DNA of 24,986 bases from a virus, in the IMG/VR virus record IMGVR_UViG_3300025681_000007, positions 1 through 24,986 of that record. One strand, 5' to 3'. The position numbers and the translations under genes were made by a program. The notes under the pieces were generated by a model. It saw only the letters and a list, made by a program, of their open reading frames with translations, was not told the origin of the DNA and searched no databases. This document shows, piece by piece, positions 2,672 through 24,986 of the stretch (position 1 is the first letter of the stretch; each line of letters begins with the position of its first letter).

Positions 2672-2980
2672 ATGATTATTACAATAAACCAACTAGAAAG
2701 AAACACAGCAGACGATTCAGTAGTTACAGCACACTGGAACGCATCATTAACAGACGGTGATTACTCAGCTAGTAGCTACGGTTCGCAGTCATTCACTAGA
2801 GATGAGGATTCACCTACGTTCATTAAGTTCGCTGATTTAACTGAAGCTGATGTAGTTGGGTGGCTAACCCTAGATGAAGGTCTAGAAGCTAACCTACAAG
2901 CTCAGATTGATGAACAGAAAGCACCTACCACGGTAACAGGCACGCCTTGGTCGGAAGCAGTATTAGAAGAAGTTGCCTAA
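2672..2980 (+). CDS. DUF7936-like phage protein, short paralogue
   Basis: A 102-residue protein with the same plan as residues 1-98 of the protein at 114-776: an MIITINQLERN start, VTAHWNAS near residue 20, DLTEADVVGWLTL in the middle and TGTPWSEA near the end. The shared Trp, His-Trp, Leu-Thr-Glu and Thr-Pro-Trp positions make the paralogy clear by eye. It lacks the acidic C-terminal extension of the first copy. AGGAG at 2660-2664 gives a good ribosome binding site, and the gene follows the fibre-associated gene after a single base. Function is unknown; in related phages this family sits among virion genes and is small enough to be a decoration or fibre-accessory protein. Confidence 0.75.
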   Translation: MIITINQLERNTADDSVVTAHWNASLTDGDYSASSYGSQSFTRDEDSPTFIKFADLTEADVVGWLTLDEGLEANLQAQIDEQKAPTTVTGTPWSEAVLEEVA

Positions 2981-2997
2981 ATAACAGGAGTAATACT

Positions 2998-3225
2998 ATG
3001 GGAAAAGATAAAAAGACCCCACAGACAGTAACAATTGATGATAAGGAATATTCAGTAGATGATTTAACCCAAGAGCAAATTGCTATGGTAAATCACGTAT
3101 CTGATTTAGACCGTAAGCTATCATCAGCACAGTTCAACCTAGACCAGCTTAACGTAGGTCGTGGTGCTTTTATGAATATGCTAACTGAGTCTTTAAAGGC
3201 TGAAGAAGTAGAAGTAGTAGAATAA
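2998..3225 (+). CDS. DUF6447-like small phage protein
   Basis: A 75-residue protein of a family I recall as DUF6447. The N-terminus has the diagnostic pattern VTIDDKEYSVDDLTQEQ (residues about 11-27), followed by a helical segment with LDRKLSSAQFNLDQLNVGR that looks like a short coiled coil, and an acidic end. The frame stays open upstream to an ATG at 2947 inside the previous gene, but the ATG at 2998 has CAGGAG 11 bases before it and begins the conserved part, so I chose it. Function is unknown; the family is common in late regions of marine podoviruses. Confidence 0.75.
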   Translation: MGKDKKTPQTVTIDDKEYSVDDLTQEQIAMVNHVSDLDRKLSSAQFNLDQLNVGRGAFMNMLTESLKAEEVEVVE

Positions 3226-3276
3226 AACAAGTAGGGGTGAAATGCCCCGCACTCATTAAATAAACTTGAAGGAACT

Positions 3277-3534
3277 ATGGAATATTCAGACATAATCTTG
3301 ACACTGGTAGGAATGGTAACAACAGGGACTATCTTTGTTATCAAGAATATCATGACTGATATTAAAGAGTTAGAGCATACGATGAATACTTGTCAATCTA
3401 ACATGCCTAGAGACTATGTACTTAAATCAGACTACAAGACTGAAGCAAGTGAGATTAAGGCTATGATTATTGAACAGTCTAAGAAGATTGACCAGATATG
3501 GAAACACATGAGGATAGGTAATGGCAAGGACTAA
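3277..3534 (+). CDS. Small membrane-anchored coiled-coil protein, possible lysis function
   Basis: An 85-residue protein. Residues about 5-26 (DIILTLVGMVTTGTIFVIKN) form one transmembrane helix. The rest is charged and helical with spaced hydrophobic residues, in the style of haemolysin XhlA-like or Rz-type membrane-anchored phage proteins. The start has GAAGGA just upstream. It overlaps the next small gene and lies two genes before a larger hydrophobic protein, so a lysis cassette is a reasonable reading. There is no clear spanin lipoprotein partner and no endolysin in the window. The gene call is sound; the lysis role is inference. Confidence 0.7.
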   Translation: MEYSDIILTLVGMVTTGTIFVIKNIMTDIKELEHTMNTCQSNMPRDYVLKSDYKTEASEIKAMIIEQSKKIDQIWKHMRIGNGKD

Positions 3535-5929: not shown

Positions 5930-6214
5930 ATGAAACCTTTAGCAGGAACATTAGTAACACCAGATAACACCCCTATTGCTAATGCATCTGTTAGGCTTAT
6001 AGCTACTAATAACACAACAGATGGTGCTTTAAAAGGCACTATGTTTGTATTTAGTACAACGTCAACTGGCACTTATGCAGTAAACGTATTACCGGGTAGT
6101 TACAAAATAGAGTTTAAGAACCCAGGTAAGGCTAAATATATTACATTAGGTCATGTCACGATTGCTGGCACAGACACCACTAGTCAACCTCTAGAGGATA
6201 TTGGGATTAGCTAA
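5930..6214 (+). CDS. Small transthyretin-like (prealbumin-fold) domain protein
   Basis: A 94-residue beta-rich protein with GTLVTPDNTPIANASVRLIA at residues 6-25, then a TSTGTYAVNVLPGSYKIEF stretch. This is the pattern of carboxypeptidase-regulatory-like or phage tail-fibre N-terminal domains, which dock fibres to tails in other phages. The first 85 residues of the following 1664-residue protein have the same pattern, so this gene is a detached paralogue of that domain. GTAGGAG precedes the start, and the stop overlaps the next ATG (TAATG). A tail-tip connector is likely; the exact role is inferred. Confidence 0.75.
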   Translation: MKPLAGTLVTPDNTPIANASVRLIATNNTTDGALKGTMFVFSTTSTGTYAVNVLPGSYKIEFKNPGKAKYITLGHVTIAGTDTTSQPLEDIGIS

Positions 6215-9200
6215 TGGCTATAATAGTTCAAGGTACATTAAGATTTCCGGATAACACACCTATTGTAGGAGCTTCGATTAAATTCGTAGCCAGTAAATTC
6301 ATACAAAGTGGTGTTCCTATTGGTGCTTCCCTAATAATTACTACTAATAGTAGTGGAGGGTACAACCAAAGTATTCTAGAGGGTAGTTATCATATATTCA
6401 TTAAGCAGTCAGGCCAAGAGCTATACACACATTTAATAGATGCGCATTTAGCAGATGGTATTGGTAATGTTGCTATTGGTGACCCTATTACACTTGAAGA
6501 GATTATAGGTACTGGCCCAGGGGATACCCCTGTCTACGCAGGTTGTAGTGTTATACCTGCTCCAACTAACTTTACTGTTTCTGGAGGCTTTACCACTATA
6601 ATTTTAAGTTGGTCAATACCTACCTACATATGTCATGCCGTTACTGAAATATGGGTGAGCACAACAGATGAATTCAGTAATAAAGCCTTACTAACTACTA
6701 CAGAAGCTTCTATCTATAGTCATGCTATCGGACATGATGCTACAGAGTATTACTGGATTAGATTTAGAAATCTAAATGGGGACTATGGTAATTGGTATAG
6801 TGCGACTAGTGTTACTGGGCAGACTTCACAAAACCCCGGTGAGGTATTAGCTGATCTACAACAAGACGTATATAACTCTACGTTATTTAACGCTCTACGT
6901 ACAAATATTAACTCTAGTTTTTATCAAGCATTAGCTCCTACAACTAAACTCAATGGTGATAGCTTAGCAAGTGGTGATACCTGGATTGACTCAGATGATA
7001 ACCAAAGACATGTATGGGATACTTCACAGGTACCTCCTGCATGGTTAGCTGTTACTGATCAAGCTACGGTATCCGCTATTGCTTCATTAGTAGGTAAACA
7101 AGAAACTTCCGATGGTGTAGTTAAAGGTTTTTTCCAGACAACAGAGCCTCTATACGCAGAATCAGCATTCGGTGATATTTGGATAGACACCTCACAACCA
7201 AAGCCACTAACCTTTACAGCTATACACAGATTCCAGGATGCGGATTCAACAAATTCAGGAAGCCTATCTTGGATGACTACAGACTCCCAGAATAATGCAC
7301 TAGGTTTAACCTATATTACAGCGTATAACGCTGATGCAGAAATCACAAACATCTTAACTGGTGAGACAGATTTAGATAATGCTGTGATTGGTGGCACTAA
7401 TTTAGTTAGTTACATCTCTGGTGTTGTGGGTACTGGTACTGACAACATGGTGCGCATTTACTCAGGGTCAGATAGAACAACACAAACTGGGATGGATACA
7501 GGTGACCTGTATAACGAAACAGATTCAAACGGTATTCTAACTACATACCAATACTCAGGCACAGGTTGGGTAGAAGTACAAGGTGCCTCTAACATGGCAC
7601 AGTTGGGTGACCTCACAGATGGTAAACGTTCCATATACACTACAGATGGTGTACCCGTAGACTCAGATGCACAAGGTGATTTAGTCATTTCTATCAATGA
7701 CTTATGGATACCTCCTTCAGATTTAACTACTACTGACGGGACTTACGCAGAAGGTCAGATTTATAGATGTACAAGTGTGTCTCCTATAACCTTCGTCAAG
7801 GCAACTAAGTATCATGACATAATTGATAATCTCAATGCCTCACTAACTAATGCAATAGATGCTAAATTGCAAACATACGCTGCAGATACAGCACCATATA
7901 TTGATGTTGTGAATATCGCAACAGATGCTACTGTGTATGCCACCCATCAAGCACGTGTTAATGATTTATGGTTATGCACAAGTACTGCAGGTATTTATGT
8001 ATCAGGTAACTACTACGAGTACACACGCACAGCGAATGGCACTAACACAAGTAACTATGACTATACTTGGGAAGTTAAAGCAGACATCACAGCTAGTATG
8101 TCTTTGTTGGTAGATAACAAACGTACAATTTATGGAGATACCACACCACCAGCAGGCACAACACATTCGTTACTAGATAATGACTTATGGATTCCCCCAG
8201 TAGATATTGTAGGACCTCCTGAGTACTTTCAAGGCGAGATGTATGTGCATGACTCCACAGCAACCCCAGTTTGGAGAGTAGCTTCAAGATACTCTGGAGA
8301 CATTGCATCAGCTAATTCCCAATTTGCTAATTATGTAACTACAAGTGCATATGGCACTGACCAAGTAGCAATACAAAACCAGTTAGATGGTAATATCACT
8401 ACATGGTTTAAAGATGAAGCACCTACATTAAGTAACGTACCAGCTTCAGATTGGCAGACGATAGACACAGCTAATAATGATGATAATGAGAAGATAAAGC
8501 ATATAGGTGATTTATACTATGACAAAGTCACTGGGTATGCTTACAGATTTGCACATGAAGACAACACAGTAGATGGCGTAGATAACCCTATCTATAGTTG
8601 GATTATAATTACAGACACAGATGTTACACTAGCTCTATATAACGCAAGTGTGGCGCAAGATACTGCAGATGAAAAACGTAGGATATTTGTAGCAAAACCT
8701 AACACGGTCACCTCAGCCTATGAACCGGGTGATATGTGGGTAATGGATAATGATGCTGACCATGCTACTTTCAGTGCAGGTGATTTACTCCGTTGTGAAA
8801 CTGGCCGCGCTAAGAACTTAGCTTCTAATACTGTTGATGCGTATGATGACGATGATTGGATAGCAGCAAGTAGGTATACAGATGACACTGCCGTAGATGG
8901 TGTTGTAGATGGAACTACCTCGTTAATAAACGCTAAGTTGGGTGATATACTCATTACAGAGTATGTTAATACCACTGTAGACACAGCTACTGATAATATG
9001 GTCAATGTGTACAGTGGTAGTGACAGAAGTACTCAAACAGGTATGTCAGGTGGTGACTTATTCATTGAGACAGACAGTGCTGATGTAACGACTACTTATA
9101 GATACTCAGAAGTAACACCAGCTACAACACCTATAACATACGTCTGGGTAGAGATAGAAGGTACTACTAACGTAGCTAAACTAGCTGACTTAACTGATAG

Positions 9201-11208
9201 TAAACGCGCTATATTCAGTACTCCTGGGATTCCTACAGATACTGATGCAGGAACTTATGACACGGTCCATATAAATGACCTGTGGATACCTCCAACAACG
9301 TTTACAGATACAACGGTTACCCCAAATATTACCTATGCAGGTGGTGAAATATACAGATGTACTATTGTAACCCCAGCAATTGTATTTACTAAAGCCACGA
9401 AATACCATGACTTGATTGAAACGTTAAATGAAAACTTAACAGCTACAATCGATGCCAAGATACAGACTTATGCACAAGCTACAGTGCCATACGTTAATGT
9501 ATTGAATGTAGTAACTAATAGTGCCTCATATCTCACACAAGAGAAGCTAGTAGGTGACTTATGGTTATGCTCTACTACAGCATCCCCGTATACTGCTGGA
9601 AAGTATTATGAATACACCAAGACAGCTAATGGAACAACAGCTGCTAACTCAGACTACACATGGACAGTAACTGTGGACATAACAGCAGACTTAGCTGTAT
9701 TAGTTGAGAATAAACGTACTATTTATGGTGGAAGTAGCACCCCTTCAGGAACTACATCACACCCTCTAGAAGTTAATGACTTATGGATACCTAGTACAAC
9801 GGTTGACACCTACCTACAGGGTGAAATGTACACTTGGACTGGTGCTATTTGGGATACAGCATCAAGATACTCTGCAGATATCTTAGAGCTAAGCAACCGC
9901 ACTATTAACGTATTCTATCAACCTGGTAATAAGGATAGTAACGGTGTATATACTACGCCTCCTGGGTCAGCTATATGGGACATTACAGGTACACCTGCCA
10001 CGTGTACTGTGTTAGGAGTAATAGATACAACTATAACTACAGAAGATTTATGTGAAGCGCCTATACAACCTGAAATAAATGATATGTGGGCTGTGTTAGA
10101 TGATGGAGATACTCTATATAAGTACGATGGTACAAGCTGGGTATTATTATCAATAGCCACCTTGGCTAATGTGGATACACAGATTGTTGAACAAGTAGGT
10201 TACTGTGAACGAACTGTGACCATCACAGGTGCTACAAACAGAACAGGGGCGTATACCACTAAGACTTTGTGTGAGGCAGCGGCTGTTACAGGTGAAACAT
10301 TTGCTTGGAGAGACACAGGAGCATTCGCAGCGTTAACAGATGTAATCAGTTCAACAGTAGATAGTAACACTAGTACCATACAGATACAAGCCACCTCTAT
10401 TAACGGTCTAGAGTCAGAGTACTCTGTCAAACTAGATAATAATGGCAATGTAAGTGGTTTTGGGTTATCAAGTGGAGCGCCAGGTTGTCTAGTTAATGGG
10501 GTGTTAGATGCTAGTATTACACAAGCAGCTTGTACAGGCACAGGTAAGGAGTGGGTAACAGACTCCAGTACTTTCCTAGTAGCAGCAGATACCTTTGCAG
10601 TAACAGGTACTGATGAGACCCCTGTCATACCTTTTGTAATTAGAACTGGAGATGTTAACGGTACTTGTTATGTAGATGGTGTGGTAAACGCAGCAGCAAC
10701 TCAAGCAGCTTGTGAAGCTATCGCTGGGGGTTCTTGGGCAGCACCAGATACTAGTGTTGTGGGAATACAAGGTAGTCTAGTATTAGACGGTACGATGAGC
10801 GCCACTACAATAAAATCAGGAACTATTACAGGTGACCTCATAGCAGGTACTACTATTACAGGCACTAATATTGATGGTGGTACTATCACAGGAAATAAAA
10901 TAAGCGCTACAACTAAAATTGTTGCAGGTACAGGTAATAATGTTGGTGTCCTGTCAGGTGTTCCTGCTTCTTGTTCTGATGGCGTTTCAACAACTGAAGC
11001 CGCTTGTATTGCAGCGGGTGCTGTTTGGGATGATTATCGCATTTATGCTGGTCATGCTACTCCTGCTTCAGCTCCTTTTAGAGTTAAGCAAGATGGTACG
11101 GTGATTATTGAATCAGCTGCTTCTGGTAGCCGTTTGGTGTTGGAAGACGATACCATCAAGGTATATAATGGGACAGTGCTCAGGGTTGTCTTAGGGAGGA
11201 TAAGCTAA
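6214..11208 (+). CDS. Giant tail-tip / host-specificity protein (lambda J and DUF1983-like)
   Basis: A 1664-residue receptor-recognition protein. Domain order: prealbumin-like domain (1-85); fibronectin-III-like domain (about 113-200, PAPTNFTVSGGFTTIILSW); a helical linker; a long array of about 13 short units containing [GN]D-[LMI]-W or close variants, such as NDLWIPP and GDLWLC (about 250-1300); a DUF1983-like region (from about 1380, YSVKLDNNGNVSGFGLSS); a Gly/Thr collagen-like ladder (TSGTITGDLIAGTTITG-type, about 1530-1570); and a C-terminal tip (from about 1600). This is the plan of the distal half of siphovirus J proteins, without their N-terminal tail-tube-binding domains. Residues 409-697 and 926-1223 are a diverged internal duplication. 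Five Cys-pair cassettes lie between 1264 and 1598. The gene is linked by TAATG overlaps on both sides. Confidence 0.85.
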   Translation: MAIIVQGTLRFPDNTPIVGASIKFVASKFIQSGVPIGASLIITTNSSGGYNQSILEGSYHIFIKQSGQELYTHLIDAHLADGIGNVAIGDPITLEEIIGTGPGDTPVYAGCSVIPAPTNFTVSGGFTTIILSWSIPTYICHAVTEIWVSTTDEFSNKALLTTTEASIYSHAIGHDATEYYWIRFRNLNGDYGNWYSATSVTGQTSQNPGEVLADLQQDVYNSTLFNALRTNINSSFYQALAPTTKLNGDSLASGDTWIDSDDNQRHVWDTSQVPPAWLAVTDQATVSAIASLVGKQETSDGVVKGFFQTTEPLYAESAFGDIWIDTSQPKPLTFTAIHRFQDADSTNSGSLSWMTTDSQNNALGLTYITAYNADAEITNILTGETDLDNAVIGGTNLVSYISGVVGTGTDNMVRIYSGSDRTTQTGMDTGDLYNETDSNGILTTYQYSGTGWVEVQGASNMAQLGDLTDGKRSIYTTDGVPVDSDAQGDLVISINDLWIPPSDLTTTDGTYAEGQIYRCTSVSPITFVKATKYHDIIDNLNASLTNAIDAKLQTYAADTAPYIDVVNIATDATVYATHQARVNDLWLCTSTAGIYVSGNYYEYTRTANGTNTSNYDYTWEVKADITASMSLLVDNKRTIYGDTTPPAGTTHSLLDNDLWIPPVDIVGPPEYFQGEMYVHDSTATPVWRVASRYSGDIASANSQFANYVTTSAYGTDQVAIQNQLDGNITTWFKDEAPTLSNVPASDWQTIDTANNDDNEKIKHIGDLYYDKVTGYAYRFAHEDNTVDGVDNPIYSWIIITDTDVTLALYNASVAQDTADEKRRIFVAKPNTVTSAYEPGDMWVMDNDADHATFSAGDLLRCETGRAKNLASNTVDAYDDDDWIAASRYTDDTAVDGVVDGTTSLINAKLGDILITEYVNTTVDTATDNMVNVYSGSDRSTQTGMSGGDLFIETDSADVTTTYRYSEVTPATTPITYVWVEIEGTTNVAKLADLTDSKRAIFSTPGIPTDTDAGTYDTVHINDLWIPPTTFTDTTVTPNITYAGGEIYRCTIVTPAIVFTKATKYHDLIETLNENLTATIDAKIQTYAQATVPYVNVLNVVTNSASYLTQEKLVGDLWLCSTTASPYTAGKYYEYTKTANGTTAANSDYTWTVTVDITADLAVLVENKRTIYGGSSTPSGTTSHPLEVNDLWIPSTTVDTYLQGEMYTWTGAIWDTASRYSADILELSNRTINVFYQPGNKDSNGVYTTPPGSAIWDITGTPATCTVLGVIDTTITTEDLCEAPIQPEINDMWAVLDDGDTLYKYDGTSWVLLSIATLANVDTQIVEQVGYCERTVTITGATNRTGAYTTKTLCEAAAVTGETFAWRDTGAFAALTDVISSTVDSNTSTIQIQATSINGLESEYSVKLDNNGNVSGFGLSSGAPGCLVNGVLDASITQAACTGTGKEWVTDSSTFLVAADTFAVTGTDETPVIPFVIRTGDVNGTCYVDGVVNAAATQAACEAIAGGSWAAPDTSVVGIQGSLVLDGTMSATTIKSGTITGDLIAGTTITGTNIDGGTITGNKISATTKIVAGTGNNVGVLSGVPASCSDGVSTTEAACIAAGAVWDDYRIYAGHATPASAPFRVKQDGTVIIESAASGSRLVLEDDTIKVYNGTVLRVVLGRIS
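7438..8304 (+). repeat. Internal duplication in the J-like gene, copy 1
   Basis: Codes for residues 409-697 of the tail-tip protein. It runs from TDNMVRIYSGSDRTTQTGM through NDLWIPP, KATKYHDI, NDLWLC, YYEYTRTANGT, DNKRTIYG and NDLWIPP to ASRYSGDI. The same order of motifs recurs 517 residues later. The copies match at protein level but have clearly diverged in DNA, so the duplication is old rather than an assembly artefact. Confidence 0.8.
8989..9882 (+). repeat. Internal duplication in the J-like gene, copy 2
   Basis: Codes for residues 926-1223. The motif order is the same as in copy 1: TDNMVNVYSGSDRSTQTGM, NDLWIPP, KATKYHDL, GDLWLC, YYEYTKTANGT, ENKRTIYG, NDLWIPS and ASRYSADI. About 230 residues of related but non-identical bead units lie between the copies. 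Confidence 0.8.
10003..11007 (+). repeat. Five Cys-pair cassettes in the C-terminal part of the J-like gene
   Basis: Cys pairs are encoded at residues 1264/1280, 1331/1353, 1425/1440, 1485/1500 and 1587/1598. The three clearest units read C-x-x-(D/N)G-V, then T-x-A-A-C, then a Gly-rich end with a Trp. Two of them, at 1425 and 1485, interrupt the DUF1983-like domain between SGFGLSS and STFLVAADTFAV, and between VIRTGDVNG and VVGIQGSLVLDG. Outside these cassettes the long protein has few Cys. Confidence 0.7.
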
Positions 11209-11513
11209 TGGCTTTTGGGTTTAAACTTAATAATGCAGCAGGGACCCCTTTTTATGACACCTCTGTAATTGGGGGTATGTATTTAGGAGCATTCACGGCG
11301 TCAGCTGGTAGTAATGCCTCATTTACTATCCCACACATAGACTTAATAAATACAATATATATACAGAAATTCATGGTCAATGATATTCCAACAAATCAAG
11401 AAGCATACTCACACACAGTCAGTTCTAATTCAACTACTGGGGTAGTGACTGCGACTTCTGTAGGCACGTCTAATCAGAGTCAAACCACACACATTTTAAT
11501 TTTAGGTAAATAA
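11208..11513 (+). CDS. Small tail-tip accessory protein (MAFG type)
   Basis: A 101-residue beta-rich protein starting MAFGFKLNNAAGTPFYDTS. GGGAGGA lies about ten bases before the ATG, which overlaps the stop of the J-like gene (TAATG). The N-terminal 30 residues share their plan with the next protein (MAFG, then a polar turn with a Gly, then a hydrophobic strand and YLG or YIG). Small proteins with this kind of start are common directly downstream of J-like genes in siphoviruses and probably attach to the tip. No catalytic motif is seen. Confidence 0.65.
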   Translation: MAFGFKLNNAAGTPFYDTSVIGGMYLGAFTASAGSNASFTIPHIDLINTIYIQKFMVNDIPTNQEAYSHTVSSNSTTGVVTATSVGTSNQSQTTHILILGK

Positions 11514-11518
11514 CAGGT

Positions 11519-12457
11519 ATGGCTTTTGGGATACACACAAGTAGTGACAATGGAGATCTGCTAATATCTAGTGATATCAAATCACTCCATTATATTGGGT
11601 CACCAACATATACCGGCGTACAGCTGAGATATGATAAATATTCAGGTAGTCGAGTGTATAGGTACACAATAACCAGTGATGCCACACCATTAATTTTCAT
11701 CAGACCCGCTAATGTAAATAAATTCTACGCTGTATTGACCCATTTTCATTCAGGGTCCAGTTGGACGTATGATGTTATAGGGAGTGGTACTGTGGATGAG
11801 CCGCCAACTCTCCACGCTTTTGCTGCCTTAAGTGGTAATGGCTCCTCAGCGGAAACCTTTGGGTTACTCGTAAGGAATGAGCTCGGTGAACGCACATTTG
11901 ACAGCAGAGAAAAGCCATTAGCTATGCTTGATGTGATAAGTGCAATCCCTCCTAGTGTACCTATGGATGGTGGAGCTACCTCACTAGGGAATATAGAGCT
12001 AGGATGGCACGGGTGTAGTGAGTCTAGTTATAGGACGGTTATGGAATGGGATTTCACTTCTGATGACACACACACAGATTACACATACGCCAGTACTAAC
12101 CATAATTCAAATTATATGTTTGCTGCCCCTTCAATAGCACAATCAGCTTGGAGACGTAATGGTAACCACTATCACTGTGATGGTTGTAGTAACTGGGCTA
12201 AAGCAGATGAACACCACAATGCTACTGCAAACCTAGGTGTGTTTTATCGACAAGCGTATAAACTAACATCCACTAACTTACAAGCTGGTTGGTGTAGCGT
12301 GAAAGAATTCTGGTACTTGTATGCTGACAAATCTTCCTGGGCTCCTTGGAATAGTGAATGTAATACCGAAGGCTCTTTTGGTATACCTTTTTCACAGAAA
12401 ACTATCAACAGAGTGAGTAATTCTGTGATCATAGCGGATGCAACTAATTATGTATAG
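11519..12457 (+). CDS. Tail-tip accessory protein with MAFG-type N-terminus and Cys/His cluster
   Basis: A 312-residue protein. Residues 1-150 are beta-rich and begin MAFGIHTSSDNGDLLISSD, like small J-associated proteins of siphoviruses. Residues about 150-312 are a distinct, aromatic and polar domain with His217, His219, Cys220, Cys223 (HYHCDGC), Trp226 and His232-His233, and further Cys near residues 164, 261 and 280. The cluster could bind metal or form disulphides. It follows the smaller MAFG gene after five bases and has only a weak ribosome binding site (ACAGG), so it probably relies on coupling. A role at the adsorption tip is likely; the C-terminal domain is not one I recognise. Confidence 0.65.
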   Translation: MAFGIHTSSDNGDLLISSDIKSLHYIGSPTYTGVQLRYDKYSGSRVYRYTITSDATPLIFIRPANVNKFYAVLTHFHSGSSWTYDVIGSGTVDEPPTLHAFAALSGNGSSAETFGLLVRNELGERTFDSREKPLAMLDVISAIPPSVPMDGGATSLGNIELGWHGCSESSYRTVMEWDFTSDDTHTDYTYASTNHNSNYMFAAPSIAQSAWRRNGNHYHCDGCSNWAKADEHHNATANLGVFYRQAYKLTSTNLQAGWCSVKEFWYLYADKSSWAPWNSECNTEGSFGIPFSQKTINRVSNSVIIADATNYV

Positions 12458-13154
12458 TAGAATATTTACTAATGAAGGTTCGGTGCTATACAAGGAGACC
12501 TTATTAATAACAGATATTGGTTACACTGTTTATAAGCATGAGGGGCATAAGTATCTTGGTAAGCCTGGGAAAGTGTATTTAGAGGCTTACTTGAACCACC
12601 CAGGTTTTAATTGGTACCTCCAGAATTATGATACTTCCATATTAGGTCATATAAATACCGTTGGCATTGAATCCAACGGTGATGTGGAGTTCTATTTTGA
12701 AAACCCTGAGAACATGGAGGTGATAGCCACGCACTATAACCTACCTAAACCTTTCAGTACATCGAAAGTACCAATATACCAGGGGTCTACATTATTATCT
12801 ATTAGATTTAATTCCAACAAAGAGGCGTACATTTACAAGGGGTACACTACAGTAAATGATGATGGGTTACGTCCAGTTGCTGAAATGTATATACCTGAAT
12901 TAGATGACACTTTATTAATACATCACGAAGCAACAGACAGTCCTGTAGGTAAAGTTAACAAACTTATGACGATGAAAAATAACCCATCCGCTGTACTTGA
13001 GGTTAAACCAAAGGAAGCAGATAGGATATATATTGATGGTGTCGTTTACTATATCGCCGATTACAATTATATTACTCATAATGGGTATTTTGTAGACACA
13101 GTACAAGGTTCCCCTTGGGAACACTGTAATGTACAAGAATTACATAGACTATAA
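12438..13154 (+). CDS. Unknown protein at the end of the tail-tip module
   Basis: A 238-residue protein overlapping the previous gene by 20 bases. ATG codons at 12438 and 12450 are both possible; neither has a strong ribosome binding site, and the second gives an 8-base overlap and a product starting MYSRIFTNEGSVLYKE. The protein is rich in Tyr, beta-type strands and turns (for example VYLEAYLNHPGFNWYLQNYD). The end, IDGVVYYIADYNYITHNGYF, looks like a small beta unit. No domain is recognised. Given its place after J-like and tip accessory genes, it is probably another tip or adhesin component. It is the last gene before a 69-base gap and the head genes. Confidence 0.6.
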   Translation: MQLIMYSRIFTNEGSVLYKETLLITDIGYTVYKHEGHKYLGKPGKVYLEAYLNHPGFNWYLQNYDTSILGHINTVGIESNGDVEFYFENPENMEVIATHYNLPKPFSTSKVPIYQGSTLLSIRFNSNKEAYIYKGYTTVNDDGLRPVAEMYIPELDDTLLIHHEATDSPVGKVNKLMTMKNNPSAVLEVKPKEADRIYIDGVVYYIADYNYITHNGYFVDTVQGSPWEHCNVQELHRL

Positions 13155-13223: not shown

Positions 13224-15395
13224 ATGAAGAATAATATATCAGATTTAGATATTGATGCGACTGAACTAGACACTTTAGTTGATTGGGAAAACCCACCTAA
13301 AATTGAAGACCTGAAGCAAGACTTAACAGAAGCACAGTCTGCTCATTCAGATCATATCATCGATGTCGAGAACTGGTTAGACGCTCTAAACGGCAAACAG
13401 AAGCTTAGCACTAAACCTGGTCGTTCTAAGATTGTTCCTAAACTTATTCGTAAGCAAGCTGAGTGGCGTTACGCTGCATTAAGTGAACCTTTCCTATCTA
13501 CCGATGACTTGTTCAATACAGCACCGGCTACCTTCGAAGATAAGAAGGCTGCTGAGCAGAATGGTCAAGTACTTAACTACCAAATTAACTGCAAGATTGA
13601 TAAGACTAAGTTTATCGATGAATACGTACGTACATGTGTGGATGAAGGTACATCTATTATTAAGTTAGGTTGGGACTACAAAGAGGAGACTGTTGAAGTT
13701 GAAGTACCTGACTTTGATTTCCAACCTACACAAGAAGCAAACCAAGTACACCAACAGTTACATGCAATGATGCAAGAAGACCCTGAGAGATTTCAACAAG
13801 AAATCCCACCAGAGATGCAACAAGCACATGAAATGTCTATGCAAGGTGGTACAGCAGTTATGCCTGTACAGGTCGGGTCTCATACTGAGGAACAAGTTAA
13901 GGTTATTAAGAACCAGCCTACTATTGAAGTGTGTAACTACGCAAACGTAATAGTTGACCCTACATGTGAAGGTGACATAGATACCGCTGAGTTTATAATC
14001 TATAGCTTTGAGACATCAATGTCTCAGCTAAAGAAAGATGGTAGATATAAGAACCTAGACGCAGTCAGCTTAGATAGTGGTAGTGTGCTGTCAACTCCAG
14101 ATCACTCTGTTGATGATGACTCTAGCTTTACTTTCAAGGACAAACCACGTAAGAAGATTGTAGGATATGAATACTGGGGATTCTGGGATATCAACGGTAC
14201 AGGTGAAGTAGAACCTTTCGTAGCTACCTGGGTAGGTGACACTCTGATTAGATTAGAAGAGAATCCGTTCCCTGACAAGAAGTTACCATTTGTAATCGTA
14301 CAGTACTTACCTAAGCGTAAGGCTGTGTATGGTGAACCTGATGGGTTACTGATTGAAGACAACCAGAAGATTATCGGTGCTGTAACTAGAGGTATGATTG
14401 ATGTTATCGGTCGTAGTGCTAACGGACAGATGGGTACACGTAAGGATGCATTAGACGTTTCTAACTACCGTAAGTTTGAACGTGGTGAAGACTTTAAGTT
14501 CAACTCTAACGTAGACCCTAGACAAGCTTTCCATATGGAGACTTACCCAGAGATTCCTGGTAGTGCACTAAATATGCTTACGTTACAAAATAACGAAGCT
14601 GAGTCGCTTACAGGAGTTAAAGCATTTAGTTCAGGTATCACAGGACAAGCATTAGGTACAACTGCTACAGGTATTAGGTCAGCACTAGATGCTACATCTA
14701 AACGTGAGTTAGGTATCCTTAGACGTCTAGCTAATGGTATTAACCAGATGGGGCGTAAGATTATATCTATGAACGCTGAGTTCTTAGGTGATGAAGAAAT
14801 CATCAGAGTAACTAATGAAGAGTTTGTAGCTATCAACCGTGAAGACTTAGGTGGTATGTATGACATTAAACTAAACATATCTACAGCAGAAGCTGACACT
14901 GAGAAAGCTCAGGAGTTATCATTCATGCTTCAGACTATGGGTAACAACATGCCTCCAGAGATGTCACAGATGGTACTAGCAGATATTGCTAAGTTACGTA
15001 AAATGCCTGAGTTGTCTAAGCGTATTCAAGAATACAAGCCACAACCTGACCCTATGGCTCAACAGATGAAGGAACTTGAAATGCAGCTGTTACAAGCACA
15101 GATTGCTAATGAGCAAGCTAAGGCACAAGAGAACCAGGTTGATGTAGGTCTGAAGCAAGCTAAGACACAGACAGAACAAGCTAAAGCTAGAGGACTACAT
15201 AGCACCTCTGACTTGAATGACCTAGACTTTGTTAATAAAGAATCAGGTGTGCCTGATGCAAACAAAGAAGAGCAGATGAAGTTAGCTCATGGTCAAGAGA
15301 TGCAAAAGAAAGAGTTTGATAGATTATCAAATTTAGACAGTAAGGCGATAGATAGTATGATGCAGGGAGCTAATACTAACTATCCGGGACTTTAA
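13224..15395 (+). CDS. Portal protein (N4/marine podovirus type)
   Basis: A 723-residue portal, the dodecameric DNA gate of the capsid vertex. Portal features are an N-terminal helical region with VENWLDALNGKQK and KPGRSKIVPKLIRKQAEWRY (residues about 47-80), a beta-rich wing with a conserved IVDPTCEGDIDTAEF segment near residue 240, a crown/stem region with EDNQKIIGAVTRGMIDVIGRSA near residue 382, and a TGITATGIRSALDATSKRE-like helix near residue 480 (here ATGIRSALDATSKRELG). Residues about 165-225 are a Gln/Met-rich insertion in the wing, and residues about 610-660 are a Gln/Lys/Ala coiled coil. The length fits this group. It is followed by the head genes in the usual order, which confirms the call. 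Confidence 0.9.
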   Translation: MKNNISDLDIDATELDTLVDWENPPKIEDLKQDLTEAQSAHSDHIIDVENWLDALNGKQKLSTKPGRSKIVPKLIRKQAEWRYAALSEPFLSTDDLFNTAPATFEDKKAAEQNGQVLNYQINCKIDKTKFIDEYVRTCVDEGTSIIKLGWDYKEETVEVEVPDFDFQPTQEANQVHQQLHAMMQEDPERFQQEIPPEMQQAHEMSMQGGTAVMPVQVGSHTEEQVKVIKNQPTIEVCNYANVIVDPTCEGDIDTAEFIIYSFETSMSQLKKDGRYKNLDAVSLDSGSVLSTPDHSVDDDSSFTFKDKPRKKIVGYEYWGFWDINGTGEVEPFVATWVGDTLIRLEENPFPDKKLPFVIVQYLPKRKAVYGEPDGLLIEDNQKIIGAVTRGMIDVIGRSANGQMGTRKDALDVSNYRKFERGEDFKFNSNVDPRQAFHMETYPEIPGSALNMLTLQNNEAESLTGVKAFSSGITGQALGTTATGIRSALDATSKRELGILRRLANGINQMGRKIISMNAEFLGDEEIIRVTNEEFVAINREDLGGMYDIKLNISTAEADTEKAQELSFMLQTMGNNMPPEMSQMVLADIAKLRKMPELSKRIQEYKPQPDPMAQQMKELEMQLLQAQIANEQAKAQENQVDVGLKQAKTQTEQAKARGLHSTSDLNDLDFVNKESGVPDANKEEQMKLAHGQEMQKKEFDRLSNLDSKAIDSMMQGANTNYPGL

Positions 15396-15413: not shown

Positions 15414-15752
15414 ATGACACAAGAGGAACAGTTAGACAGCTTAGAATTTAGTATGGATGAGGCTAAACACTTTATCAGTGTGAAAAACAGTATGCTGAAA
15501 CTACAAAATAATCGCGATTTTAAAAAGGTGATTACAGAGTACTACTTCAAAGAAGAGGCTGCTAGGTTAGTTATGGCTAAAAGCTCTAACCTTAATGTAG
15601 AACAGCAGCTACTGGTTGATAAAATGATTTATGGTGTGGGGTCACTTGCTAAGTTCTTAGATAGCGTAATCTCTAGAGGCACTCAAGCAGAGCAAGCTCT
15701 AGCAGAAGACGAAGATACAAAAGCTAGTATCCTTCAGGAGGGTTTAGTATAA
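15414..15752 (+). CDS. Small head-module protein between portal and scaffold
   Basis: A 112-residue, helical, acidic protein with LDSLEFSMDEAKHFISVKN near the start and LQNNRDFKKVITEYYFKEEAARL in the middle. This DFKKVI...Y.KEEAARL pattern is typical of a small protein that lies between the portal and scaffold genes in podoviruses with N4-type capsids. GAGGG precedes its ATG, and its stop overlaps the scaffold start. It is probably a minor head or assembly component; its function is not known to me. Confidence 0.75.
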   Translation: MTQEEQLDSLEFSMDEAKHFISVKNSMLKLQNNRDFKKVITEYYFKEEAARLVMAKSSNLNVEQQLLVDKMIYGVGSLAKFLDSVISRGTQAEQALAEDEDTKASILQEGLV

Positions 15753-16906
15753 TGACTACAAACAATGACGCATTAGGAATGTCAGACGAAGATTTCTTGA
15801 AAAAAGACTTCGGAGACTTCGAAGAAACACCAGCAGTAGAAACTGCTGAACTAGACACTGAAGTGACAGAAGAGCAAACTTCTGAAGCTGATGTAGAGAC
15901 TCAAGTGATTGAGACTCAAGATAACGCCCAGGAGCAACCTGAGCCGGAACCGTTAGATGATGCAGATAGCCAACCATTTGAGGATACTCAAACGGAGCAG
16001 GAACCTTCAGCTAAAAGTACTGAGCCAGCGTCTCTTGATACAGAAGTCAAAGTAGATGACACAGATGGGGATACCCAAGAAACATCAACTGTAGACTTCC
16101 AAGGAGCATATGAGAGGATTTTCGCACCCTTTAAGGCCAATGGCAGTGAGATGCAGGTGGACACGGTTGACGATGTAATGTCATTAATGAAGATGGGAGC
16201 TAACTACCAGAAGAAAATGGCAACGTTAGCACCTAATCTGAAGTTAGTGAAAATGCTTGAGAAGAATAACTTACTAGATGCTAGTAAGCTAAACAACTTA
16301 ATCGACATCTCTAAGAAGAACCCTGCTGCAATTTCTAAGCTTATAAAAGATAGTGGGATAGACCCTCTCGATATTGATACTGATGAAGAGGTGAAGTACA
16401 CCCCTAATGACTACAATGTATCAGACAAAGAGTACAAGTTAGATGAAGCGCTAGAAGGCATCAAAGATAGTAGGTCTTTCAACGACACCATTGACGTTTT
16501 AACTAATCAATGGGACGCTGCAAGTAGAACTATAATCACTGAGAACCCTAAGATTATAGGTATTATCGATGAACATATGCAGAATGGTGTGTATGCTGAA
16601 GTGAATAAGTTAGTCTCAAAGGAGCGCGCCTTAGGTAGATTAGAAGGTGTCTCTGATGTAGCAGCTTATCAACAGGCAGCAAACTACTTAGCTAGTATTG
16701 GCGTGCTGAACAACGGAGACACTAAGAAGGTGGCTACACCACCTACGTCAGATGTATCAAGTAAGACAAAAGCAAAGGATGATGCTCAGTTAACGAATAA
16801 ACGTAAAGCTGCAGCATCTACAAAGACAAGTAGCAAACCTACGACTTCTCAACCAGACTTCTTAAAGATGACGGATGATGAGTTTATGAAGATGGCTGCT
16901 GTCTAA
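15752..16906 (+). CDS. Scaffolding-like head assembly protein
   Basis: A 384-residue protein. Residues 1-125 are strongly acidic and low-complexity (Glu, Asp, Thr, Gln), so probably disordered. Residues about 128-160 hold FKANGSEMQVDTVDDVMSLM and MGANYQKKMA, then LDASKLNNLIDISKKNP, and DSGIDPLDIDTDEEVKYTPN, a recurrent pattern of the protein upstream of N4-gp56-type capsid genes. The end is Lys/Ser/Thr-rich with a short helix (PDFLKMTDDEFMKMA), which may be the capsid-binding tail of a scaffold. It overlaps the upstream gene by one base with AGGAGGG just before the start. An assembly scaffold is the best reading, from charge, position and family pattern; proteolytic removal cannot be judged. 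Confidence 0.8.
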   Translation: MTTNNDALGMSDEDFLKKDFGDFEETPAVETAELDTEVTEEQTSEADVETQVIETQDNAQEQPEPEPLDDADSQPFEDTQTEQEPSAKSTEPASLDTEVKVDDTDGDTQETSTVDFQGAYERIFAPFKANGSEMQVDTVDDVMSLMKMGANYQKKMATLAPNLKLVKMLEKNNLLDASKLNNLIDISKKNPAAISKLIKDSGIDPLDIDTDEEVKYTPNDYNVSDKEYKLDEALEGIKDSRSFNDTIDVLTNQWDAASRTIITENPKIIGIIDEHMQNGVYAEVNKLVSKERALGRLEGVSDVAAYQQAANYLASIGVLNNGDTKKVATPPTSDVSSKTKAKDDAQLTNKRKAAASTKTSSKPTTSQPDFLKMTDDEFMKMAAV

Positions 16907-16933: not shown

Positions 16934-18163
16934 ATGGCTCAAGTATACGGTGACGGTACTAATTCAACAGTAGGTGCACAGGCACGTACTGATTTTTATA
17001 ACAAAAAGGCGCTAATTGCAGTACGTGATAAGCAGTACTTCATGCCTTTGGCTAACGTTCAGGCTATGCCTAAACATCACGGTAAGACAATTAAACAAGA
17101 CGTTTACTTACCTTTACTAGATGATTTGAACATCAACGACCAAGGTATTGACGCTTCTGGCGCAACTATCGACAGTACTAAGTTTTCAGCTTGGACTAAA
17201 GCTGGTGCTTTAATTGGTGCTGCATACACAACAGCAGCTTTAGCTGCTGCTGCAACTGGTGCTGCTGTAGTTCAACAGAACTCTGGTAACTTATACGGTT
17301 CAGGTAAGGACATCGGTTTAATCGCTGCTAAACTTCCTGCATTGACTGAGAACGGTGGACGTGTTAACCGTGTAGGCTTTAAGCGTACACAGATTACTGG
17401 TTCAATCGTTAAGCAAGGTTTCTTTACTGAGTACACTCAGGAGTCTTTGGACTTTGATTCTGATTCTGAACTACTTTCTCATATTACTGAGGAAATGGTA
17501 CAGGGCGCTACTGAATTAACTGAAGCGGCTTTACAGTCTGACTTGATTAATTCTGCGACTACTACAGGTACAGCTTACTTTAAAGGCGGTACTACTAAAG
17601 CTACAGTATCAGGTGTTGTTACTTACACTGACTTAATGAACTTGTCTATCGCTCTAGATAACAACAAGACACCTAAGCAGACTAAAGTAATCTCTGGTTC
17701 TCGTTTAGTTGATACTAAAACTATCAATGGTGGCCGTATCATGTATGTAGGTTCAGAGATGATTCCTGCTTTACGTGCTATGACTGACTTACACAGTGCT
17801 CCAGCATTTGTGTCAGTAGAGAAGTATGCTGATGCAGGCAACACAGTAAACGGTGAGATTGGTTCTATTGACCAGTTCCGCATCGTTGTTGTTCCTGAGA
17901 TGCAGTACTCTGCTAAAGGCGGCGCGGCTGGTGTAGACATCTACCCGATGTTAGTTGTTGGTGATGGTTCATTTACTACTATCGGTTTCCAAACTGATGG
18001 TAAGACTGTGAAGTTCACTACTACGCACAAGAAGCCTGGTAAAGATGTAGCAGACCTTAACGACCCTTACGGCGAGAAAGGTTTCTACTCAATCAAGTGG
18101 TACTACGGATTCATGGCACTACGTGCTGAGCGTCTAGGTATCATCTGGACTAAAGCTGCTTAA
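16934..18163 (+). CDS. Major capsid protein, N4-gp56 family
   Basis: A 409-residue HK97-fold capsid protein of the N4 gp56 type. The N-terminus has the family pattern: [20 protein letters not shown], then [20 protein letters not shown], then [13 protein letters not shown]. Further signatures are [20 protein letters not shown] near residue 165, and an end with [21 protein letters not shown]. Residues about 88-112 are an Ala-rich stretch ([20 protein letters not shown]). TAGGAG stands before the ATG. Codons look more uniform than in neighbouring genes, as expected for the most abundant virion protein. A hairpin follows the stop codon after 16 bases. Confidence 0.95.
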
Positions 18164-22650: not shown

Positions 22651-23412
22651 ATGTTAAATTGGAAGAATGTACAGTATGCAAATGGTTCAGGTCTTGTAAA
22701 TGCTATTAGAGATAATAATAATCAGATTACTAAAGGTAACCAACAGATTATTGATTCTATTACTGGGTATGCTGATAATAGGTCAACACAGGAAACTGAT
22801 CAGTTAGTTGCTGCAATGACACTGGTACAGGATGATGGTACTGATGCAGGCATTAAGAGAGCTAAAGCTGATAGAAATGCTATTTTACAAAGTATAAACC
22901 CGGACACCTCGTTTGCAGATTTAAGTACTGTTATCGAAGCTTATAAGACTGCTAATACTCCTGCAGAACAGACTTGGCAACAGCAGAATGCTCATGAAAT
23001 ATATATTCAAAAACTTAAAAATAAAGACTCTTTCAAAGAAGGTAAACATAACTATAGCCCTTCTGGTATTGCAAATGAAGTTACTAAATTATACCCAGAT
23101 GCACAAAATACTTCATTATGGGGTCTTGGTAATTTATGGGGTGAATCTACGCCTGCAGCTGATACACAGAATCGTATTAGTAAATTTATCAGTGATATGG
23201 GAATGAATGATAAAGAAGCTAAACGGGCTGTTAAAACTTTATTAAGTAATACCACTTATGACACAACTGGGCGTAATGAAGTATTTATCAATAATGGTCA
23301 GATGGACACAACAATTGATGATGCTACCAATGAGCAGTTAACAAATATACTCATTAGAGGTGGGTACTTATCAGACGCTGATAAAGACAAGAAAAAAACA
23401 GACACTAAATAA
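22651..23412 (+). CDS. Ejection-module protein, unknown
   Basis: A 253-residue hydrophilic protein with AAGGAG just before its ATG, nine bases after the previous stop. It begins MLNWKNVQYANGSGLVNAIR and has a helical Gln/Asn-rich N-terminal half (NNNQITKGNQQIIDSITGYA). The C-terminal half is more compact (SRISKFISDMG-type helix, here NRISKFISDMGMNDKEAKRA) and ends Lys-rich. No motif reveals an enzyme. Its place between a small internal-virion-type protein and the giant ejection protein suggests it travels inside the capsid. Confidence 0.65.
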   Translation: MLNWKNVQYANGSGLVNAIRDNNNQITKGNQQIIDSITGYADNRSTQETDQLVAAMTLVQDDGTDAGIKRAKADRNAILQSINPDTSFADLSTVIEAYKTANTPAEQTWQQQNAHEIYIQKLKNKDSFKEGKHNYSPSGIANEVTKLYPDAQNTSLWGLGNLWGESTPAADTQNRISKFISDMGMNDKEAKRAVKTLLSNTTYDTTGRNEVFINNGQMDTTIDDATNEQLTNILIRGGYLSDADKDKKKTDTK

Positions 23413-23424
23413 GGAATTCCCACT

Positions 23425-24986
23425 ATGGCCTCATCTTCTGAGATTTTTAGCAGTGTTGTAGCAGGTAAAATACAGAGTTTAGCTTCAACAAGTACACGTA
23501 AACGTGAAAAATTATCTGACATTTCAGGTAACTCAACAACCTTTTTAGAAGAAGCTATACGTAATAGTTACTTAGATAATGTATCTACACGAATTGAACA
23601 AGGTAATTCTAACTTTTTAGAGCAAGGTACTAACAGGGTAACTTTCAAAAACTTACAAGGTAAAGGTACTGATGCAGATTCAGGTTATTTTACTTTAGGT
23701 GATAAGGAAGCTGGATTACGTGCTCTAGGAATTGATGCACCAGAGACATCATTTTATAAAGCTGAAAGTAAAGGTAGGGATAGCCAACGTGCTCACTATG
23801 CTAAGTTATGGAATGTACCTGAAGATAGGATAACTAATGATGTTATCTTTGCTATGGGTAAACGTTCAGAAGAGTTATTTGACAAGGTTGCCTCTGAAGG
23901 TCAAGACATTAATAATGGCATTGTTGCAGATGCCACATATGACCCCACATCATTAAAGTGGTCAACAGATAAACGTACTAAAGCTACAGTAACAAATCCA
24001 TTCACCGGTGTTGATGTATACAACGCCATGAACACACCTGAATTTAATACTAGGTGGTTTGATAACACTCCAGAACAAAACGAAATACGTTCTAAATACG
24101 AAGCTGAGAATGGTAGTAATTACTCTAACTTCAAAATGCCTAATGAAGGTCAAGTTGTTGGTAATACACAGTTTGGAAGACCTGCATTTTATTTAAATGG
24201 TGAAATTGTTTCTGAGAAATCTACAACACTTGAGGTAGATGGTAAGTGGGTTAATGTTCCTACCATCTGGGATGGTAAGAAATACTCAGATGATGAAGTT
24301 GCTGTAATGCTTGCTAGAGGTGACATAGAACCTACTAGTGTACACAAATCAGAAAAAGAAGCAGGAATAGCAGCTAAATCTAGGTCTAAAAGTATAGACT
24401 ATGGGCAGAATGCTTCTGAACAAAAGGCTAAAGTAAGATTAGGTCAATACTCATCTGACTTTGTAGATAAATCAGACAGTCTTCAAGCAATTTTTGAAAG
24501 AAGTTTTAGTTCAGGTGTAGATAATTTACAAGCTACTGGTTATGGTTTTGCTGCATTAATTGCAGATGCTACTGGTAATGAAGAATTTGCAACTAAGATG
24601 TTAGAGCATTATTTAGCTAACATTGATGAAGCTCAGCGTAACGGTGCACACTTACCACCTATTGAGGAAATAGATTGGTTTAGCCCACAAGCATTACAAA
24701 AGGTAACAGCCTTACTTGGTGAAGCTATGCCATCTATCATTGAGATAGGCGGTGTTGCACTAGCTGCATACTTTACTGCTGGTACCGCAGCTGTTGGTTA
24801 TGGTAGTTTAAGATATGGTGCCCAGTACATGGGTAAGAAATATGTCAACAAACAAATAAGTAAGAAACAATTACAAAAAATTAAGAATAGGTCAGCATCA
24901 GTTGGTGGTTACTTAGCTGCTAATGTAATGGAAACTGGTGGTATTTATGGTGATGTAGCAGTAGCTGGCCATAGAGATGCTAAAGC
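23425..24986 (+). CDS. Giant ejection / internal virion protein, N-terminal part (3' partial)
   Basis: The frame runs open from ATG 23425 (AAGGAATT upstream) to the window edge: 520 complete codons and no stop. Residues 85-155 resemble staphylococcal nuclease: Arg99, Asp104 and Glu107 in LRALGIDAPETS keep the spacing of the catalytic Arg35, Asp40 and Glu43, and MGKRSEELFDKV follows. Residues about 250-322 match a domain that recurs in phage ejection proteins (GRPAFYLNGEIVSEKSTT, then VNVPTIWDGKKYSDDEV, then IEPTSVHKSE). A hydrophobic helix lies at 434-460, followed by GGYLAANVMETGGIYGD, typical of the long membrane-active region of such proteins, whose full length often exceeds 1500 residues. 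It is likely packaged in the capsid and injected. The nuclease reading rests on a motif only. Confidence 0.75.
   Translation, partial: MASSSEIFSSVVAGKIQSLASTSTRKREKLSDISGNSTTFLEEAIRNSYLDNVSTRIEQGNSNFLEQGTNRVTFKNLQGKGTDADSGYFTLGDKEAGLRALGIDAPETSFYKAESKGRDSQRAHYAKLWNVPEDRITNDVIFAMGKRSEELFDKVASEGQDINNGIVADATYDPTSLKWSTDKRTKATVTNPFTGVDVYNAMNTPEFNTRWFDNTPEQNEIRSKYEAENGSNYSNFKMPNEGQVVGNTQFGRPAFYLNGEIVSEKSTTLEVDGKWVNVPTIWDGKKYSDDEVAVMLARGDIEPTSVHKSEKEAGIAAKSRSKSIDYGQNASEQKAKVRLGQYSSDFVDKSDSLQAIFERSFSSGVDNLQATGYGFAALIADATGNEEFATKMLEHYLANIDEAQRNGAHLPPIEEIDWFSPQALQKVTALLGEAMPSIIEIGGVALAAYFTAGTAAVGYGSLRYGAQYMGKKYVNKQISKKQLQKIKNRSASVGGYLAANVMETGGIYGDVAVAGHRDAK

Follow-up and report, generated by a model that had tools for sequence, protein, structure and literature searches.

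N4-like virion RNA polymerases (vRNAPs) are among the largest phage proteins that are pushed into cells, and what their non-polymerase parts do has yet to be settled (PMC4496689). In phage N4, the vRNAP sits above the portal, exits first through a 25 Å tube and goes to the cytoplasmic membrane, and is followed by the first 500 bp of DNA; early transcription needs gyrase supercoiling of the topologically constrained incoming DNA (PMC4496689). N4-like RNAPs with attached MPTase, lysozyme, PBECR RNase, or ART domains have additionally been described and classed among the polyvalent proteins (PMC5512222); the main text of that paper mentions staphylococcal nuclease (SNase) zero times. In the stretch of marine N4-like phage DNA analyzed here (24,986 nucleotides, IMG/VR record IMGVR_UViG_3300025681_000007; hereafter the window), the vRNAP N-terminus is probably a divergent SNase domain with intact metal and catalytic residues (D85, D104; R99, E107, R184), which would be ejected and act as an early effector.

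By sequence comparison, the open reading frame (ORF) at 23425 encodes the N-terminal part of a virion RNA polymerase of the N4 type. This identity follows from its match to phrog_2206 "virion RNA polymerase" (E 4.9e-22 for the part within the window) together with its gp50 gene position: with the capsid gene as anchor, the gene order is that of N4 genes 57-56-55-54-53-52-51-50, with PHROG matches for portal (13224-15392) and major capsid protein (16934-18160) upstream and a match of 15752-16903 to a PHROG named tail length tape measure. The best cultured-phage matches of the capsid gene include N4 itself and N4-like phages, and the opened records of these phages carry Schitoviridae annotation. 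An earlier note on this DNA, made from the sequence alone, had spoken of a giant ejection protein; by phrog_2206 and gene order this is not a generic ejection protein but a vRNAP, and delivery of the polymerase into the host with the genome is expected by analogy with N4.

The window stops before the RNAP, HELIH, and helicase parts, which are known from relatives alone. The vRNAP ORF of contig L002, which shares 90.8% DNA identity with the window over the common vRNAP stretch, runs on for more than 4,600 aa and matches phrog_2206 with an E-value of 0. Its RNAP module, beyond the window end, carries a VETDGITNG motif and N4_RNAP_helical (PF21894), and two HELIH metallopeptidase motifs (residues 2744 and 3571) flank an SF1/Dda-like helicase (residues ~2900-3460; PF13604 (AAA_30), UvrD_C_2, phrog_325). 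A helicase of this type is also found in the G017/L120 vRNAP, which lacks SNase. Gene position and order, together with the RNAP module, HELIH, and a conserved C-terminal region read in relatives, are features shared with N4 gp50 and other Schitoviridae vRNAPs (phrog_2206); the L002 protein carries the SF1 helicase in addition and exceeds the EcP1 vRNAP by more than 1,100 aa. The combination of several enzyme domains with a metallopeptidase in one polypeptide, characteristic of polyvalent proteins (Iyer et al. 2017, PMC5512222), is present in L002, outside the window fragment; its direct analogues are the N4-like RNAPs to which PBECR RNase, lysozyme, and ART are joined (PMC5512222).

Table 1. 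Features of the gp51-vRNAP region, in window coordinates; residues are numbered from the vRNAP start codon
Feature	Position	Strand	Basis
gp51-position virion protein, exchanged with vRNAP	22651..23412	+	phrog_37241; N4 gene order
Recombination boundary inside gp51	22761..22762		Same end point in four contigs
vRNAP N-terminal 520 aa (gp50 homologue)	23425..24984	+	ATG start; open at window end
Predicted SNase-like nuclease domain, residues ~66-216	23620..24072	+	AlphaFold2, Foldseek, VIA, hhalign
D83-A-D85 (= SNase D19/D21; D21 ligates metal)	23671..23679	+	Both Asp invariant in 15 relatives
R99, D104, E107 (= SNase R35, D40, E43)	23719..23745	+	D and E invariant; R by inspection
Helix 138-157 with MGKRSEELFDKV (SNase alpha-1)	23836..23895	+	DSSP of model, model residues 78-97
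R184 (= SNase R87), directly before strand beta-5	23974..23976	+	Invariant in 15 relatives

The earlier note had proposed that LRALGIDAPETS retains the Arg-x4-Asp-x2-Glu spacing of SNase catalytic residues; the motif is found exactly where it had been placed, at residues 98-109 of the 520-aa translation, and MGKRSEELFDKV (residues 144-155), which had been read as the helix that follows in the fold, falls inside the modelled counterpart of that helix. The catalytic codons occupy 23671-23673 (D83), 23677-23679 (D85), 23719-23721 (R99), 23734-23736 (D104), and 23743-23745 (E107). On its own, the bare R-x4-D-x2-E is weak evidence, as it is present in 9% of shuffled copies of the 520-aa sequence. 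However, a D-x-D-[ST] element stands 14 residues ahead of the Arg, and the extended pattern D-x-D-[ST]-x(9,16)-R-x4-D-x-[PA]-E occurs in only 0.005% of shuffled copies. Both the D-R spacing of 14 and the R-x4-D-x2-E spacing are those of S. aureus SNase, and the same R, +5 D, +8 E arrangement is found in MAG_5040 (PMC3585158).

Structure prediction places this motif in the expected context. A template-free AlphaFold2 model built from 11 alignment rows (pLDDT 80.5, pTM 0.75) has strands at residues 69-74, 86-91, 94-99, 166-172, and 185-190 and a long helix at 138-157, in the order b-b-b-(a)-a-b-b-a; the predicted fold is an OB barrel. The best 50 Foldseek rows against the PDB were all staphylococcal nuclease (E 1.8e-4 to 6.3e-4, prob 1.00), with TM-scores by query length of 0.44-0.54, so that the structural match is clear yet not close. 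VIA-align 2 likewise returned SNase for all of its best 50 PDB matches (Z 9.9-10.3; best 2.8 Å over 112 residues), and the top named matches in a viral structure library were TNase/thermonuclease proteins. In an hhalign comparison with SNases taken from Pseudomonadota genomes, the domain profile reached a probability of 87.4% (P 3.7e-6, score 41.4), as compared with scores of 19.0 for the best of 200 column shuffles, 12.4 for the reversed profile, and 11.7 for a downstream vRNAP region; the alignment pairs D83/D85, R99, D104, E107, and R184 with SNase active-site residues.

Family libraries do not name the region, which, together with the frequency of the bare motif, would favor LRALGIDAPETS being a coincidence within an unrelated fold. 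No PF00565 match was obtained from Pfam at E<=10 for the window, L002, or divergent relatives (gathering score 21 bits), and single-sequence searches with NCBIfam, PHROGs, PDB sequences, and tblastn did not reveal SNase for the window or any relative. A profile of the 15-member alignment described below (A6) gave, as its best matches to PDB sequences, proteins with no relation to SNase and without significance (E 0.14 or higher), and one relative, L080, matched phrog_452 "endonuclease" weakly over 58 residues only (E 0.0076). Against coincidence, SNase is the answer of template-free prediction, of structural search, and of profile-profile comparison alike, and all five catalytic positions are kept in distant relatives, some with canonical DGDT and DKYGR; the chance-motif explanation is accordingly rejected as extremely improbable. 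As the PF00565 model fails to reach the domain, it is filed under the SNase superfamily and not as a PF00565 member. Membership of the superfamily, established by homology, predicted fold, and active-site conservation, is almost certain.

As in described SNases (PF00565, TNase-like; S. aureus 1snc, plasmid ParB, phage GBSV1 NSN), the domain has a b1-b2-b3-a-b4-b5-a barrel and a DxD...R...DxxE...R active-site series. Unlike these proteins, to which it is about 17% identical and thus below Pfam detection, it has a ~30-residue extra helix/loop between E107 and the long helix, and some members have a further insertion before R184. It also differs from secreted SNase in forming the N-terminus of a predicted ejected polymerase of 3,800-5,000 aa. 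The interval originally noted, 23671-23890, lies within the domain, but the fold is larger and extends to about residue 216; the second Arg, which had been left in doubt, exists as R184 and falls outside that interval.

Relatives of the domain were collected in several scans. The first identified three close relatives (78-99%). A capsid-anchored scan yielded 80 N4-like contigs, and a profile search of their ORFs recovered divergent SNase copies where the vRNAP gene begins; a second scan added further relatives, including L108. The resulting alignment (A6) comprises 15 rows that are 21-91% identical to the window, with invariant columns at D83, D85, D104, E107, Q160, R184, N191, P192, G195, N203, P205, and N208, five of which correspond to SNase D19, D21, D40, E43, and R87. 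The earlier uncertainty as to whether Asp83 or Asp85 is the acidic residue before the motif can be settled to the extent that both are invariant, as are the Asp and Glu of the triad, down to 21% identity. The closer rows align at R99; in L018, L020, L080, L106, L108, and L081, the Arg precedes a loop of variable length, and because the aligner places it inconsistently in these six divergent rows, its presence in all relatives is established by inspection only. Neither outcome that the earlier note had named as refuting, a predicted fold lacking an OB-type barrel or a triad lost from close homologues, was observed. Relatives read DGDS, DGDT, or DADT at D83-D85, and DKYGR (L108), YYGR (L080), or DKYNR (L018) at R184. 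L108, the best-looking relative, reads IDGDT...VRFGAPNISLDTAET...DKYGR, an almost canonical SNase series; its own AlphaFold2 model is of low confidence (pLDDT 65.7) and contributes little: it gave no Foldseek match at E below 0.001, although the top 50 VIA rows for this model were all SNase (Z 6.8). Across the SNase domain, dN/dS is 0.12-0.17, showing purifying selection.

Conservation of the active site bears directly on whether the domain is catalytic. SNase folds can persist without catalysis, as in Tudor-SN, whose SNase repeats are inactive. The domain could similarly serve for binding or as a structural element at the front of the vRNAP, such as one contacting DNA or RNA at genome entry. 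The N-terminal vRNAP domain of N4, which has no nuclease, is reported to be required for injecting the genome (PMC4496689), the loop from Arg to D104 changes length in the six divergent rows, and one relative, L049, is without half of the domain, all of which would be compatible with such a module. However, the five active-site residues form the invariant core of the alignment of 15 members, whose scaffold diverges down to 21% identity, and in SNase copies without activity these residues should be the first to go; we therefore regard a noncatalytic module as unlikely. The SNase domain is probably an active nuclease.

The shortened domain of L049 (12330-13031) has its C-terminal half, including the second Arg, replaced by a GRPAFY...DGKWVNVPTIWDGK domain. 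In the window, residues ~243-322 (24151-24390; VVGNTQFGRPAFYLNGEIVSEKS...DGKWVNVPTIWDGK) form a separate module common to L045, L055, L112, L116, and L049, and missing from some SNase carriers.

In L111, L112, L114, L116, and L118, the vRNAP ORF is complete, with lengths between 3,806 and 4,993 aa, and carries SNase, RNAP, metallopeptidase, and C-terminal parts. In L110, L113/L117, and L115, the vRNAP gene is split into two overlapping ORFs, the first (1,081-1,301 aa) with SNase and the second (2,418-2,717 aa) with RNAP; a ribosome-binding-like GGAG/AGGAG stands directly ahead of the second ATG. The junctions lie at ~3888-3907 in L110 and ~3709-3728 in L115. A further split, in L119, shows no ATG over 73 residues and might have arisen from an error in sequencing.

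Carriers of the SNase domain cluster mainly in one marine clade: in a capsid tree they fall into one clade of 12 plus L081, requiring two changes, as compared with a shuffled mean of 9. In contrast to the window, the domain is absent from the vRNAPs of the cultured N4-like phages examined (EcP1, vB_AemP_PT15-A5, and vB_VhaP_PG11) and from those of marine contigs L056, L064, L069, L072, and L075. The L064 vRNAP (8543-11605) has, by eye, an apparent lytic transglycosylase (ESSFDPKAKSDKGAMGLGQFMP) near its N-terminus in place of SNase. Querying 50,697 phage records with four domain members by tblastn returned nothing convincing, though distant copies could escape a sequence search of this kind. 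A scan of genome contigs for the SNase domain found no relative, and N4-like major capsid proteins in bacterial assemblies led to vRNAPs that are without the domain. Both the fold and the class of ejected protein were already known; the combination of SNase with vRNAP was found neither in the cultured phages searched nor in the main text of PMC5512222, within a literature search of open-access papers.

By comparison with N4, the vRNAP polypeptide would be packaged above the portal and would enter the cell ahead of the DNA via a tail tube of ~25 Å, so that the SNase domain would have to unfold and then refold. Once refolded and loaded with metal, it would be a sugar-nonspecific, metal-dependent endonuclease. 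As has been proposed for polyvalent proteins, cleavage by the fused HELIH metallopeptidase may free it from the polymerase; one subclade already has SNase on a separate N-terminal polypeptide. Its most likely use would be in host takeover, as one among several effectors in the same ejected protein, attacking the RNA and/or DNA of the host within the first minutes of infection; the known fusion partners (metallopeptidase, lysozyme, PBECR RNase, ART) make an early anti-host effector the most economical reading. That the nuclease acts on host nucleic acid, as opposed to the phage's own DNA end, we consider an even call.

The substrate could instead be nucleic acid of the phage itself, with the nuclease trimming or nicking the leading end of the genome, or processing the early transcripts that the fused polymerase makes. 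The domain is fused to a polymerase that acts on this leading end, and the N4 vRNAP exits first with 500 bp behind it, as such a role would suggest; however, a nick would relax the gyrase-made supercoils that N4-type early promoters need, other N4-like phages manage without the domain, and SNases are without sequence specificity. We judge this alternative to be rather improbable, if less so than a noncatalytic module.

The supercoil requirement of early transcription in N4 also means that incoming DNA must be uncut, and packing an active nuclease together with the genome would be dangerous, which counts against the domain being active. According to PMC7697877, SNase artificially packaged in T4 heads cuts the packaged DNA. 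The T4 heads cited there resemble the arrangement predicted here in having SNase inside a phage head with DNA, but are engineered, whereas the window nuclease would be a natural, conserved part of a predicted virion protein. If this phage ejects like N4, SNase must spare the leading DNA and be harmless in the head; restraint might come from metal supply, the unfolded state during ejection, gp51, or the fusion context. How a nuclease can travel beside and ahead of a genome whose transcription depends on its being intact is a puzzle. The combination of SNase with a polymerase expected to be ejected suggests that attack on nucleic acid, or its processing, begins as soon as infection starts. A recognizable nuclease at the front end of the vRNAP represents a testable activity, and adds SNase to the known effector domains on N4-like polymerases.

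Comparison of closely related contigs shows that gp51 and vRNAP are swapped as one cassette between 99%-identical phages. From 13152 up to 22761, the window shares 99.1-99.3% DNA identity with L018, L019, and L020, and about 92% with L023; past 22761, nucleotide similarity ends in all four, the sole exception being a stretch of 217 bases further down that matches L020 at 74%. The contigs have the first ~37 codons of gp51 in common, after which the proteins diverge (lengths 256, 736, 286, and 709 aa), and the vRNAPs differ as well. L002 is the converse case, with a backbone at 70-80% and a vRNAP at 90.8%. L043 and L045 repeat the pattern, with 99.7% identity over 10.6 kb followed by just a 361-base match (71%) in the vRNAP. 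In nature, as this boundary at 22,761 suggests, close relatives swap ejected proteins as they do receptor-binding proteins.

Every readable swapped-in vRNAP version retains SNase. The SNase domains of the window, L018, and L020 are 22-28% identical and keep the active site in each, indicating that function is retained as the cassette turns over. A selective reason for this turnover is something we infer. We tentatively suggest, at somewhat less than even confidence, that a marine N4-like clade delivers SNase fused to or just ahead of its vRNAP, that the gp51-vRNAP cassette is swapped wholesale under an arms race with SNase as its sole constantly kept effector, and that gp51 may be a partner that keeps SNase harmless in the virion. 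A second block of the window, 11111-13152, is likewise without a match in L018-L020; it adjoins the tail fibre gene (6214-11208) and contains ORFs at 11519-12457 and 12438-13154.
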